Origin: Luteolibacter pohnpeiensis
GTDB taxonomy: Bacteria > Verrucomicrobiota > Verrucomicrobiia > Verrucomicrobiales > Akkermansiaceae
Assembly (NCBI RefSeq): GCF_016595435.1
Contig: NZ_JAENIJ010000021.1
Span: 1-64,000 of the forward strand
Direction of reading: 5' to 3'
Length of the DNA: 64,000 bases
In this document: positions 205 to 5,118 of the stretch, one piece after another
Layout: every line of letters begins with the position of its first letter
Numbering within the stretch: the first letter of the stretch is position 1
Notes under the pieces: generated by a model
The model's database searches: none
What the model saw: only the letters and a program-made list of their open reading frames with translations
Told to the model about the DNA's origin: nothing
Program-made: the position numbers and the translations under genes

Positions 205-846
205 ATGCGAGGTGTTTACATTTTCAGTTATCTACTTCTCTCGGCGGGATTCGCGTCGGCCGCTACCATCATTGATGATTTCAGCACCGGGAGTCTTGCT
301 TTCGATTCTTCCGACTCGATTTCACAAGAGGGCTTGGATACAAACTCCGTTCTAGGTGGCCGCCGCTCGGTTAGCGGATCCGCGCTGGGGTCGGCATCAA
401 TGGATGTGCGAGTCAACACGACTGAGGGTGCCTTCCAATTCACAAGTAGCGATTTCGGCTACTTCTCGGTTTCCTATTCTATTGATGTGGAGAACCGTGT
501 TGATCTGCTCGCCAACGGAGACACAGCCTTCGTTCTCAGCTTCTCGTTCGTAGACCCTGGCTTCTGGCGAGGGAGATATGGACTCACAGTTGATGGCGTT
601 CGCTACAGTCTCGCGAGCGAGATATTCGCCTTGAACGGCTCGGGAACAATAGAAGTCCCATTTTCTGCGTTTACGAGCGCAACATCATTCACTCCATCAG
701 AGATCGTGTTTTCCGCAGATCGAGTCGAGCCGAACTTGCGCCTTGAGCTTTCGTCGATCTCGACGATACCCGAACCGCGGTTGGCCATCCTTCTTGCGGT
801 TGGAGCACTCTTCACGACAATGAATTGCAGAACCAGGCGGGGATGA
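205..846 (+). CDS. PEP-CTERM sorted exported protein
   Basis: A 213-residue exported protein of unknown role. Residues 1-19 are a signal peptide (hydrophobic SYLLLSAGFASA, then a cleavable A-S-A). The middle is Ser/Thr-rich and beta-type. The C-terminus from about residue 188 has the PEP-CTERM plan: an IPEPR motif, a short hydrophobic stretch (LAILLAVGALFTT) and a basic end (RTRRG). In known systems the PEP motif is cut by an exosortase during surface export; no exosortase lies in this window. The stop codon TGA (844-846) falls at the left edge of repeat A, as if the gene were the first unit of the repeat-delimited array. Base composition is lower in GC than the core genes after 4.2 kb. Confidence 0.8.
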   Translation: MRGVYIFSYLLLSAGFASAATIIDDFSTGSLAFDSSDSISQEGLDTNSVLGGRRSVSGSALGSASMDVRVNTTEGAFQFTSSDFGYFSVSYSIDVENRVDLLANGDTAFVLSFSFVDPGFWRGRYGLTVDGVRYSLASEIFALNGSGTIEVPFSAFTSATSFTPSEIVFSADRVEPNLRLELSSISTIPEPRLAILLAVGALFTTMNCRTRRG

Positions 847-937
847 CAATCCGCTACCCCCGCCGCGAGTCGGAGATTGAACCGTGACTAGAACCTTTTA
901 ACCCTGAGTCGGACTGGCGCTCTCGGTAGTGGGTGCC
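845..937 (+). repeat. Interspersed ~95-bp repeat, copy A
   Basis: This copy begins GACAATCCGCTACC, contains GAGTCGGAGATTGAA and CTGAGTCGGACTGGCGCTC, and ends GGTAGTGGGTGCC. The outer ends are complementary (CCGCTACC against GGTAGTGG, one G-T pair), so the copy could fold with a paired base. GAGTCGGA occurs twice inside as a direct repeat. Copies B (2205-2304) and C (2837-2933) share the same order of blocks. It touches the stop codon of the upstream gene, and the next ATG comes at 976. This is like an integron attC site in position and size, but strict RYYYAAC/GTTRRRY core sites are not evident. Confidence 0.7.
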
Positions 938-975
938 ACCACCTCGACGTTAGATAGATAGACTGAAATTATTCA

Positions 976-1053
976 ATGCAAACTTTACCACTTGTCCTCG
1001 CTCTAGCTGTTGGAGCGTTGGCGACGGTGGAAAGCTCGTGCTCATGGATATAA
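976..1053 (+). pseudogene. Short lipoprotein-like start, truncated
   Basis: ATG at 976, 38 bp after repeat A, opens a 25-codon frame beginning MQTLPLVLALAVGALATVE and followed by SSCS, like a signal peptide with a nearby cysteine. TAA at 1051 ends it. The sequence after the stop (1054-1200) holds degenerate direct repeats (CTTGTCCT.CGCTCT and GCGTAGG.GATAT each occur twice) and no convincing gene. It is probably the 5' remnant of a decayed secreted protein gene, but it could be chance. Confidence 0.22.
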
Positions 1054-1203
1054 CTGCGTAGGAGATATCAAAATGAGCGAACAAGGTGGTCTACTCAATG
1101 CTTACTCGCATCACAGCTCGTGCTTGTCCTTCGCTCTGGCACGAGTCGCGCCACGGGCGAGCGTAGGTGATATTGAAGGTTCTGCTAAATAATTCTAATA
1201 AAT

Positions 1204-1518
1204 ATGAATACCGACCTTGATAGAGTAACTCAAAGAGTTGAGCGTCTTGAACTCCAGAATCGACGATTGCGGTATTTTACTTTCGGAGTCTGGCCGTTCG
1301 TTTTGGCGATCATCACAGTTCTCGTTCTGCTTCCCGCGAAGATCGATTTTAAAGCAATGAAGCTCCTATTAGCCTGGGTTGGAGCAATTGTTGGACTGCT
1401 CGTGATCGCCTTAACGATTGCAATTGCTTGTTGGTTCCTGCTCAGGGTGGCGGTCGACTTCAAGAATCGCAATTCCCGGTTCGTTCTTAATCCTGGAAGT
1501 CGGAAGCTATCTGATTGA
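1204..1518 (+). CDS. Small two-helix membrane protein
   Basis: A 104-residue protein not recognised as a known family. Residues 1-24 are charged and heptad-like (DRVTQRVERLELQNRRL), suggesting a short coiled coil. Two strongly hydrophobic segments follow at about 26-45 (FTFGVWPFVLAIITVLVLLP) and 55-82, then a basic tail. This is the layout of a small inner-membrane protein with cytoplasmic ends. It sits in the AT-richer accessory stretch between repeats A and B. An opposite-strand frame overlaps it but lacks the membrane pattern. Confidence 0.55.
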   Translation: MNTDLDRVTQRVERLELQNRRLRYFTFGVWPFVLAIITVLVLLPAKIDFKAMKLLLAWVGAIVGLLVIALTIAIACWFLLRVAVDFKNRNSRFVLNPGSRKLSD

Positions 1519-1564
1519 AAGAACCCTACAGCGTGTGTGCTGATCTTTGACACTCGCCGGAAAA

Positions 1565-2232
1565 ATGCATCGCTTCGCCCTAATACGCCTCGTGTTTTTC
1601 GTTTCTTCGTGTGCGGTGTCTACTGATGGTTATTTCAAATCAATTTCCGTCAGTCTTCCAACGTAGAATGATTCGGACGTCACGGATACGCTGACTCCGG
1701 GGAAGCCGACGAGAGACGTAGACGATGATAGAACCATCAGTGGCTAAGTGAAGAGGCTGAAGAGTGCGATGACGACCTCAACGGCGGTCGGCACGGGAGC
1801 TTGAGAGTCCTTATGTGACTCTTTTCCGATTTTCCACCCCGCCATGCGGGCCAACTTGGTTCAAGACCGAGTCTCTCGCCACGAATTATCGTGGGGACGA
1901 GGGCTGTTTACTTGGTGGCTTTCACACAAGGCCCTGGAAACTACCGAAACAACGAAGAGTTGACCTATCTGTTTCAGGGGCTCTCTTACGACGAGAAGAT
2001 TTTTATATCCGGTGACTTTCGAGTGACCCACGCGATCCTTCGCGCCACCATTGATTCTATTTCCGACTACGACTACATCGACGACAAGGTTCAATAGGTT
2101 GCGAGGGCGTTGGCCCGCCAGACAGACCCGACTTCCTTACCTGATCTGAAGGTTATCCGTGAGTGGGTGGCCTCGATATCAATCTATCAAGCTCAACAAA
2201 CCACGGCTGGACAATCCGCTACCTCGCTGTGA
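1565..2232 (+). pseudogene. Decayed lipoprotein-like gene ending in repeat B
   Basis: ATG 1565 starts a lipoprotein-like leader (MHRFALIRLVFFVSSCAVST, with VSSC as a lipobox-like site). The frame then meets TAG at 1664 and further stops, but protein-like sequence continues (NDSDVTDTLTPGKPTRDVDD). After a frame change near 1820-1890 a second coding-like stretch runs from about 1891 (VGTRAVYLVAFTQGPGNYRN...). It passes an in-frame TAG at 2095-2097 and continues (VARALARQTDPTSLPDLKVI) to a TGA at 2230-2232, inside repeat B. I read this as one secreted protein gene broken by three or more stops and one frameshift. Its final residues, AGQSATSL, are encoded by the repeat. Confidence 0.4.
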
Positions 2233-2304
2233 GTCTGAGATTGAAACTTGAAAAGATCTATATATTCTGAGACGGACTGGTGCTCTCGTTAGCGGGTGCT
2301 AGGC
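2205..2304 (+). repeat. Interspersed ~95-bp repeat, copy B
   Basis: The copy runs from GGCTGGACAATCCGCTACC through GAGTCTGAGATTGAA and TCTGAGACGGACTGG to GTTAGCGGGTGCTAGGC. The outer blocks are complementary over about 7 bp (ATCCGCTA against TAGCGGGT with one G-T pair). The broken upstream gene ends inside it and the next gene starts at ATG 2324, 20 bp downstream. Its spacing and relation to genes are the same as in copies A and C. Confidence 0.72.
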
Positions 2305-2323
2305 ATCAAACGTGATACAGAAA

Positions 2324-2920
2324 ATGAAGACCATTCTATGCTTCTTTCTCTTGGCTCTCCGATTATTTGCAGCAGAGCCATGTCCGGTTTGCGGAGGCGA
2401 ACTTACCACCGTTGGGATGATCAAGGATGATCTTTCCAAGCCGAACAAAAACGAGTGGGTTTGGCGCGGCAGCCCGGAATGCGGACTTCAGATGTTCAAT
2501 GACGACTCTCCAATCTGCAAGCGCTGTTGGTTTGTTTCGGATGGTGGCACTCCGGTGTGGTGGAGACGCTCCAGTGAACTACCTGACTCTTTTCTTGTTC
2601 CATTCTCTGTGGCGATTCGCAATTTTCCTGTACCGCCCAAATCAGCGAGCTACGAACAACGATTTGTTGAAGGTACACGGACTGAGTCTATCCATTTCTG
2701 GTGTGATGACTCTCCTGAACTGATCGCAAAGTTCCGCAAGTATTGCATAGAGAACAATCTTTCTATCGATATCTCTGCGAAGCACGATGGCCAAGTGTTT
2801 ATAGATATTGAACCAGTCGTGGGACAACAAGGCGGCGCTGGACAACCCGCTGCCACTTCTGAGTCGGATTCGGAGGGTGGTGAAAATCATCAACCTGAAT
2901 CGGATGAGCGCTCCCAGTAA
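2324..2920 (+). CDS. Exported Cys-rich protein with zinc-ribbon-like N-terminus
   Basis: About 198 residues. A GTG at 2312 is possible, but the ATG at 2324 gives a clean signal peptide (MKTILCFFLLALRLFAAEP). Directly after it come CPVCGG (about residues 20-25) and a later CKRC, two Cys pairs like a treble-clef or zinc-ribbon site, then a Trp-rich stretch (VWWRR). The family was not recognised. The last 28 residues (AGQPAATSESDSEGGENHQP onward, acidic) are read from repeat C, so the tail is probably acquired rather than part of the fold. The start lies 20 bp after repeat B. Confidence 0.6.
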   Translation: MKTILCFFLLALRLFAAEPCPVCGGELTTVGMIKDDLSKPNKNEWVWRGSPECGLQMFNDDSPICKRCWFVSDGGTPVWWRRSSELPDSFLVPFSVAIRNFPVPPKSASYEQRFVEGTRTESIHFWCDDSPELIAKFRKYCIENNLSIDISAKHDGQVFIDIEPVVGQQGGAGQPAATSESDSEGGENHQPESDERSQ

Positions 2921-2933
2921 CGGGTGGTTGGGC
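2837..2933 (+). repeat. Interspersed ~95-bp repeat, copy C (overlaps 3' end of a gene)
   Basis: The copy starts CGCTGGACAACCCGCTGCC, has GAGTCGGATTCGGAG and CCTGAATCGGATGAGCGCTC, and ends GTAACGGGTGGTTGGGC. It matches the block order of A and B with substitutions and a different middle. Outer-arm pairing CCCGCTG/CAGTAACGGG is imperfect. It is translated in frame by the preceding gene almost to its end. The next ATG lies at 2956, 22 bp downstream. Confidence 0.7.
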
Positions 2934-2955
2934 ACATACATTTTGCAAAAAGAAG

Positions 2956-3309
2956 ATGGTAATTATCGCAAAACTTAAGGCGTCGGGCGTTCGCGTGGCC
3001 ATCATTGGAACTGGTTACGGCGCACTCGAATCGGCCAGAGCGAGTTGAATTTTCAGTGATCTGCTTCCGAGCTATATGAGCGGGTGACTTGGGGAGATTG
3101 TTGTATCCAGGAAGAATGGTGGGATTTTATGGTGTCCCTCCCATGAGAGTCAGATCGTAGAGATTGATGGAGTAGCCGTTGATAGCGTGTTGCAAGGCGG
3201 CGCTGCTACAGAGAGCGCTGCTGATCTTGTGTTCCCTACATCGACTGCCGAAGAGGTGCGCAATCCCCCACAGTTCATCGCTTTCGTGACGGAAGACCGT
3301 GATAGGTAG
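2956..3309 (+). pseudogene. Orphan reading frame interrupted by two in-frame TGA codons
   Basis: ATG 2956 opens a frame (MVIIAKLKASGVRVAIIGTG...) that meets TGA at 3046-3048, continues 12 codons to a second TGA, and continues in the same frame with protein-like sequence (EIVVSRKNGGILWCPSHESQ, IVEIDGVAVDSVLQGGAA) to TAG 3307-3309. That is 118 codons including the final stop, with only TGA as internal stops. The likely reading is a decaying gene after repeat C. TGA recoding is possible but unsupported: I see no selenocysteine insertion element. The minus-strand frame over the same bases (3127-3456) is less protein-like. Confidence 0.35.
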
Positions 3310-3508
3310 TTTTTGGGCAGTGGTCGTATCGAGACTGAGTTTAGTGAGTGGCAGTCGCCGCAAAAAAGAATCACAGAATAAGGTGCTGCGTCCGTAGGAG
3401 ATCAGCCTGCGAGTTAGTTTTAGAGCTTCCATACCATCGCAAATGAAATTATGCATTCGCTGAGAAATTTATGATTAACATATTAGTCTTTGAGGTGCTG
3501 TCCCACAG

Positions 3509-3692
3509 ATGAATCAAGAAAGGAAACCATGATCCTCGGCGACGGTATCTCTACAAAGAGCAAGTTTCTGCGAAGTTCTCTGAATGGCTTAAGTCGTGTG
3601 ACCAAGAAAATCATAAAGACCAAGCGGTCCCAGGCAACGGGCGTCCATCCTTACCTGGATCTTGTATGTTCTGGGTGAAAATGTATGTATAA
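3509..3692 (+). pseudogene. Possible frameshifted small gene upstream of the 3685 membrane protein
   Basis: ATG 3509 gives MNQERKP then TGA at 3530-3532. Shifting the frame back by one base just before it gives a continuous protein-like run (RRRYLYKEQVSAKFSEWLKS, CDQENHKDQ...) to TAA at 3690-3692. That stop overlaps the start of the next gene (ATG 3685) by 8 bp, the spacing seen for translationally coupled genes. It may be a 60-residue gene broken by a one-base change, or chance. No family was recognised. Confidence 0.28.
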
Positions 3693-4065
3693 CTCAGTGC
3701 TCACCTTGATCCTGCTTGCAATTGCCGGTGTTGTCCTTCTTGGCGGATATGTTGCCGTTTGCCGTTGGCTAGTGAAGGGGCAGGCGTGGGGTTTCCTCTA
3801 CGTTGCCTACTTTGTGTTGTTTGGCACGGTCGGCGGTTGGGTTTTCACTTTTGCAATGTCGCCGTCTGGTGTCGCCGCAATGAGTGCAATGTTTCTTTCC
3901 ACCGTTGCGCTCGCCGCATGCCTGATTTGTGCGATTGTGGTTAGCTCTCGGGAGAAGAAGAGCCGGGCAGAGTGGATCATCCTAGCCGCAGGTTGCTCTT
4001 ACCCGATTTGTCTCGGAGTGATGGTAGGCATCGGATTCTTGCTCGACTCACGGCTACCATCGTAG
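3685..4065 (+). CDS. Small four-helix membrane protein, unknown
   Basis: A 126-residue protein with four clear hydrophobic segments at about 5-28, 37-60, 65-87 and 98-120. They are separated by short loops, with a charged loop SSREKKSRAEW before the last helix. No catalytic motif is visible and the family was not recognised. It is the last gene of the accessory stretch before the core minus-strand genes, and it converges on aroE. Confidence 0.6.
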   Translation: MYNSVLTLILLAIAGVVLLGGYVAVCRWLVKGQAWGFLYVAYFVLFGTVGGWVFTFAMSPSGVAAMSAMFLSTVALAACLICAIVVSSREKKSRAEWIILAAGCSYPICLGVMVGIGFLLDSRLPS

Positions 4066-4197
4066 CTGGTTTTTTTGTTCTATGCAAAAATGAACCAGAG
4101 AAACCCTGCGTCATTCCTAGTGCTTTTCAGCGGCATGACTCCAATGCTGGGTGGTATGGTCATGAGAGGCTTTTGAGAATGATTCGCGGATCATTTC

Positions 4198-5118
4198 TCA
4201 ATGGATACGGGCCGCCATGGCTTCCCGCATCACACTGATCGGGTCCGTTTGGGGAAACCAGTGTTGGAACGCAAGCACGCCTTGATGGATCAGCAGTGAC
4301 AGGCCGTTTGCGGTTTTGCATTCCAGCGCCGAACCAGCCGCGAGCAGGGGAGTGACTGCAGGCTGGTAAATGGTGTCATAGATCAAATGGCGGCTGCGCA
4401 GTAAAGTTGGCGGCAAGATGGACGGATCGCCGACTTTAAGGCCCACTGAAGAAGTATTCACGATCAAATCACAACTCCGACATTGTTGGGAGAGTTCTTC
4501 ATCTTCAAAGGACAATGCCGTGATGTCCTGGGTCGACCCCAGCGCCAGCATGCGATTCACCAGCGGGCCGAGCTTCGATACGGTGCGGTTTACCAGCACC
4601 AGTTTTTCGACTCCCTGCATGGCACACTGTGTCGCGATAGCCTGGCCAGCTCCGCCGCCTGCACCCACGATCATGACTTTCAGGGTGGAGAGCGTGGTGT
4701 TGAATTCGTCGGCGATGGCGCGGACAAAACCCGGTCCATCCGTGTTGAAACCTCGGACAGCATCCGCATCGAAGCGCACGGTGTTCACCGCCCCAAGAGA
4801 TCTGGCATCCGGGTGCACCTCGCTGCATGCTTCCAAAGCCTCGAATTTATGCGGAACCGTGACGTTGCAACCAATGAAATCAAGAGCTCTCATCCGGTCG
4901 AATGCTTCCGCGACCCGTCCCGGTTCCACCAATACCCGGATGTAACGCGCATCGATATCATTCGCATCGAGCGCCGGTTGTTGGAGATAGGGGGACGCCG
5001 AGTGCGCAATCGGATTTCCAATGACCGCCAGTTTTGCGGGTTTGGAATGCCCAGCATCCAGGGTATCGCGAGAAACCAAGTCTTCGAGGGAGTAAACTTC
5101 AGGCATGAGATCGATCAA
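4198..5118 (-). CDS. aroE: Shikimate dehydrogenase
   Basis: NADP-dependent reduction of 3-dehydroshikimate to shikimate in aromatic amino acid synthesis. The substrate domain has GNPIAHSASPYLQQPALD, the catalytic Lys in NVTVPHK, and the Asp in GFNTDGPGF. The Rossmann part has GAGGGAGQAIATQCAMQG. Two starts are possible: TTG 5118, whose TTGA overlaps the stop of gltX, or ATG 5106 four codons on. The ATG gives 302 residues, slightly long for the family owing to an N-terminal extension (PEVYSLEDLVSRDTLDAGHS) before the fold. It is translationally coupled to gltX. A hairpin (4175-4201) overlaps its stop but has no U-run. Confidence 0.93.
   Translation of the reverse strand: MIDLMPEVYSLEDLVSRDTLDAGHSKPAKLAVIGNPIAHSASPYLQQPALDANDIDARYIRVLVEPGRVAEAFDRMRALDFIGCNVTVPHKFEALEACSEVHPDARSLGAVNTVRFDADAVRGFNTDGPGFVRAIADEFNTTLSTLKVMIVGAGGGAGQAIATQCAMQGVEKLVLVNRTVSKLGPLVNRMLALGSTQDITALSFEDEELSQQCRSCDLIVNTSSVGLKVGDPSILPPTLLRSRHLIYDTIYQPAVTPLLAAGSALECKTANGLSLLIHQGVLAFQHWFPQTDPISVMREAMAARIH

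Follow-up and report, generated by a model that had tools for sequence, protein, structure and literature searches.

Integron integrases (IntI) are tyrosine recombinases that recognise the folded bottom strand of an intact attC site; strand exchange at the G^TT of its R' box excises or inserts a unit of gene plus attC as a circle, and attI sites are poorly conserved. The closest described systems to the one analysed here are the sedentary chromosomal integrons of Vibrio, Xanthomonas and Treponema, which are alike in having a TIGR02249 IntI, arrays of short co-oriented cassettes, AAC and GTT triplets, R and L arms that pair but leave additional bases on one of the two sides, and cassette ends at G^TT. 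They differ in their R' box, GTTRRRY there and mostly GTTC.. here, and in the fate of the reading frame, which stops in R'' in Vibrio, whereas here R'' is mostly GAAC and the site is predicted to be translated. Sequence conservation of attC is limited to the AAC triplet of R'' and the GTT triplet of R' (PMC3607928). Integrons have already been reported in Verrucomicrobiota (PMC8618304), and taxon-specific attC models exist for 11 taxa, Verrucomicrobia not among them (PMC8352920); our approach is the same, a covariance model of one lineage's attC. Against this background, three repeats in Luteolibacter pohnpeiensis are almost certainly attC sites of a chromosomal integron and mark the distal end of its cassette array, where decay is under way; the integron is of an ordinary kind, its attC being lineage-specific.

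The window, the whole stretch of 64,000 nucleotides that was analysed, starts at base 1 of its contig. The original prediction had described three repeats of about 95 bp sharing an ordered set of blocks. The blocks are indeed present at all three places; both ends were missed, the full sites being about 126–130 nt long with outer R'' and R' boxes. A covariance model trained on 15 sites, the three from the window included, returns exactly three sites in the 64 kb, at 89–105 bits, and an Rfam scan of the window gave two tRNAs and nothing else. The features are as follows, the boxes having been assigned by reading the sequence:

205..846, + strand: ORF of 213 aa, with its stop in L'' of site A
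826..955, + strand: attC site A (copy A of the original prediction, extended), 94.4 bits; R'' GCAGAAC at 827-833, R' GTTAGAT at 949-955, predicted crossover 949^950
950..2312, + strand: cassette unit A-B, apparently decayed
2190..2318, + strand: attC site B, 89.4 bits; R'' GCTCAAC at 2191-2197, R' GTGATAC at 2312-2318, decayed, without GTT
2313..2940, + strand: cassette unit B-C, with one intact gene
2324..2920, + strand: cassette gene, 198 aa from ATG 2324 (GTG 2312 in the ORF listing), reading through attC site C
2821..2946, + strand: attC site C, 105.1 bits; R'' GGACAAC at 2822-2828, R' position ATTTTGC at 2940-2946, decayed, without GTT
2822..2920, + strand: predicted attC-encoded C-terminal tail GQQGGAGQPAATSESDSEGGENHQPESDERSQ, with a TAA stop in L'
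2947..4197, no strand assigned: tract past the last recognised attC, taken as the array's decayed end

AAC is kept in all three R'' boxes and GTT in the R' of site A only, so sites B and C are probably now inactive, having lost GTT. The strict attC core, which the original prediction had called not obvious, seemed absent because the boxes lie outside the extents first given, because mutation has altered two of the three R' boxes in the window and because the consensus of this lineage is GTTC.. rather than GTTRRRY. Decay also shows in the folds. Alone, the three window copies form no hairpin (bottom strand, z +0.6 to +1.5), and the shorter extents first given show no clear structure either (z –1.9 to +1.1), because they exclude the R boxes and the copies are decayed. 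Among intact copies, by contrast, three of four bottom strands fold well as one long hairpin (z –2.0, –2.6 and –1.8; the fourth, –1.0). The original prediction had named further copies and a conserved single-strand fold as its checks: many more copies are found in the genome and in relatives, and attC-like hairpins are found in the intact copies and not in the three of the window.

It had also placed each repeat at the end of a reading frame, with a new ATG following. The first statement is correct for A and C, where ORFs 205-846 and 2324-2920 both stop within the site, and fails for B, which no intact ORF reaches (ORFs 1204-1518 and 1891-2097 of unit A-B both fall short). The second applies at 2324, which starts an intact gene; the ATGs at 976 and 2956 open just 25–30 codons or so. 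Unit B-C is the sole window cassette with an intact gene running into its own site, and this gene has a paralogue in a cassette on contig C230 (L166). The C-terminus of the 205-846 protein looks, by eye, like a PEP-CTERM sorting signal, and the protein has no match in Pfam or NCBIfam. Between site C and the convergent chromosomal gene at 4198-5118, which from its sequence we take to be aroE, the covariance model finds no further attC site. The best reading of the cluster is that an array, which would extend to the left past the contig end at base 1, has its old distal end here. A fragment at 3190-3220, TTGCAAGGCGGCGCTGCTACAGAG, looks like the beginning of an attC and could be one more decayed site that the model does not report. 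At the opposite end of the contig (C133), further attC sites lie on the minus strand at 78149-80033 and 82836-82895 (L168), so that both contig ends look like distal array ends.

Read from better copies elsewhere in the genome, the site measures about 126–130 nt and runs from R'' nnnGAAC through a spacer and a long L'' arm GCTGGACAACCCGCTACC to a loop of about 65 nt, then through the L' arm GGTAGCGGGTGCCAGGC and a second spacer to R' GTTCnnn. The left arm bears two extra As, at the position of the extrahelical bases of attC. RNAalifold recovered part of the stem only, and the stem was therefore named by hand and then tested by covariation. This 22-pair structure, with helices 74% and 88% paired, has 83.9% of its cells paired, compared with 27–41% when the partners are slid by 1–3 columns; its covariation is 0.232 against a shuffled mean of 0.145, a value reached in 0 of 500 shuffles, and compensatory change is visible by eye where CCGGC/GCCGG replaces CCCGC/GCGGG. 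Across 363 sites, R'' ends in AAC in about 320 (GAAC 212, CAAC 59, TAAC 42) and R' starts with GTT in about 314. The GTT is followed by A or G, as in GTTAGAT of window site A, in just about 109 of the 363; GTTC is the commonest, with 202. Two other searches added little: a two-mismatch pattern search of the same genome gave 177 matches and 139 for the reversed control, hence mostly chance, and a simple attC finder run on loci from other phyla was not clearly above shuffled sequence, so a Vibrio VCR array was taken as control. In one relative, G041, the arrays also contain interspersed sites of another attC class (L151-L155), which is shorter, at about 107 nt, and encodes its own tail (..GAANRDNAGCCSQDL).

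The ends of 266 cassettes, drawn from 11 genomes and with a median length of 638 bp, were tested in two ways. When the variable part of R'' is compared with the R' that opens its own cassette at the 5' end, 3.05 of 4 positions are complementary, compared with 2.20 for the R' of its own site and 1.89 for random pairs, by 163 cassettes to 53 in favour of the own-cassette R'. Where different arrays hold near-identical cassettes, these end no more than a few bases from the predicted boundary (for example, 97.5% over 667 bp with offsets of –6 and +6). By both tests, cassettes are units of gene plus attC with ends at G^TT. Stem covariation, boundaries and R''/R' complementarity across the cassette support the view that these units would be exchanged by recombination at G^TT.

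The genome encodes an integron integrase at C66:713-1621, which scores 327–328 bits with TIGR02249 (cut-off 265) and whose nearest solved structure is Vibrio IntI4 (2A3V, 2e-69). From its family, this IntI would act on the attC sites described here. On the intI contig, the sequence breaks off 328 bases ahead of the ORF. The assembly is fragmented, with about 70 attC sites over some 20 contigs, many at contig ends as expected because repeats break assembly; since intI lies on a separate contig from the window cluster, its linkage to an array is shown only in a relative, the complete genome G041:

G041 array 1: intI 2267125-2268069, then sites from 2268740 to 2303922, same strand, about 35 kb
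G041 array 2: intI 2974296-2975207, then sites from 2976336 to 3003036, same strand, about 27 kb
G041 third site cluster: 2725869-2734594, no integrase beside it

Two intI genes thus directly adjoin arrays of dozens of co-oriented sites. On G041:C1, the intI at 2267125-2268069 is oriented like its cassettes and the one at 2974296-2975207 is oriented away from them, the usual arrangement. As side observations on the protein, the L. pohnpeiensis IntI (L040:329-1636) is extended at its N-terminus by about 120 residues that match nothing in Pfam, and the intI frames of several relatives are also long, at 460–545 aa.

Of 59 related genomes, 47 have the site family, as do only 5 of 145 genomes sampled across the phylum, two of these five being L. 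pohnpeiensis itself and G039; TIGR02249 is found at E<=1e-60 in 29 of the 59 relatives and in 0 of 14 control genomes, and one Verrucomicrobia MAG has intI plus 25 sites. Single or paired attC sites lie far from either intI at 606103, 894273, 3155889 and 3488687 of the complete chromosome G004:C1. Clusters of attC without an integrase (CALIN) are a described counterpart, and several clusters in relatives are likewise far from any intI, such as the third cluster of G041; the window cluster cannot be assigned to CALIN or not, because the contig ends at base 1.

That the repeats are built like integron cassettes was therefore a correct reading of the window, given the site family, its stem, the defined cassette ends and the intI in the genome. 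The further suggestion of an unrecognised attC class finds no support, as IntI scores above the curated cut-off and G041 sites of the same family lie beside intI. Service by a recombinase other than IntI, also proposed, is very improbable: the genome does encode other tyrosine recombinases, and 30 of the 59 relatives, several with sites, have no intI at the strict threshold, but an IntI above the curated cut-off exists in the genome itself, IntI adjoins the two G041 arrays, intI-less sites are a known state (CALIN) and the assemblies of many relatives are incomplete. A REP- or MITE-like mobile repeat that favours the 3' ends of genes and is no recombination site can be dismissed as hardly credible, for although copies do lie at 3' ends and some are single and scattered in relatives (G004 606103 and 894273, for example), dozens are co-oriented in runs that begin beside intI, the genome has its own IntI, what recurs is a gene together with its repeat, bounded at G^TT, and the complementarity spans the cassette.

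Reading frames enter these sites in a biased manner. Among 216 ORFs of at least 80 codons that are still open at R'', 184 use one frame and 15 and 17 the other two; their proteins form 184 similarity clusters, of which 152 use the favoured frame, so the bias does not come from one copied gene family. A Vibrio array has the same entry frame, used by 14 of its 14 ORFs, which stop at the TAA in R'' (nnnTAAC); here the frame stays open past R'' because R'' is mostly nnnGAAC. Unrelated cassette proteins are consequently predicted to share attC-encoded C-terminal tails, whose length is set by the site subclass: 32 codons (..GQPATRSESDSEGGDKPQPESEGRSR), 19 codons in G041 (..GAANRDNAGCCSQDL) or 16–17 codons. 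Tails of 31–33 codons occur on 42 clusters, and the 32-codon tail terminates at a TAG or TAA within L'. By a crude test that is confounded by genome, apparent signal peptides open 30 of 47 proteins with the 32-residue tail and 4 of 23 that stop in R''; the excess could hint at an extracytoplasmic role for the former, and is only a lead.

Why the tails exist can be read in three ways. It is quite possible, if tentatively held, that they are a by-product, in which a TAAC core turned into GAAC, taking away the R'' stop and leaving the inherited frame to run on to the next stop without benefit. The use of the same frame in Vibrio, where every ORF of the array stops at the R'' TAA, favours this, as do the 19-codon class, which shows no codon-position pattern, and the frame-breaking indels borne by some sites. 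The loop part of the 32-codon class argues the other way: its diversity at the three codon positions is 0.30/0.16/0.35 (permutation p 1.5e-4), a second-position deficit, and synonymous changes make up 35% of single changes where 21–27% is expected. Because the sequences are related and the test ignores the tree, the pattern is suggestive of constraint rather than proof of it. A second reading, which we regard as rather unlikely, is that attC in this order has a second, selected role, in which it would be translated and would tag unrelated captured proteins with a common C-terminal tail that may serve stability, folding, export or another function.

Small ORFs within attC that keep the stem-loop from forming and link translation to that of the next cassette have been reviewed (PMC8876359). 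On this precedent, read-through might be retained for the effect of ribosomes on the mRNA hairpin, whose melting would aid expression of the next cassette, the amino acids mattering little. The 32-codon class, with its stop in L' near the end of the stem, fits such a role, but melting alone does not explain the second-position constraint, and we consider it unlikely to be why the tails are retained.

The shared tail, predicted from the reading frames, is the part of this work for which we found no precedent, in a literature search whose incomplete coverage makes it weak evidence of absence. On the integron side, our data add an order-wide case to a phylum already listed with integrons (Verrucomicrobiota, PMC8618304). 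Should selection act on the translated attC, integrons would not only move genes but also change the proteins encoded in their cassettes, and R'' would work as a switch between stop (TAAC) and tail (GAAC) that is coupled to the recombination core.
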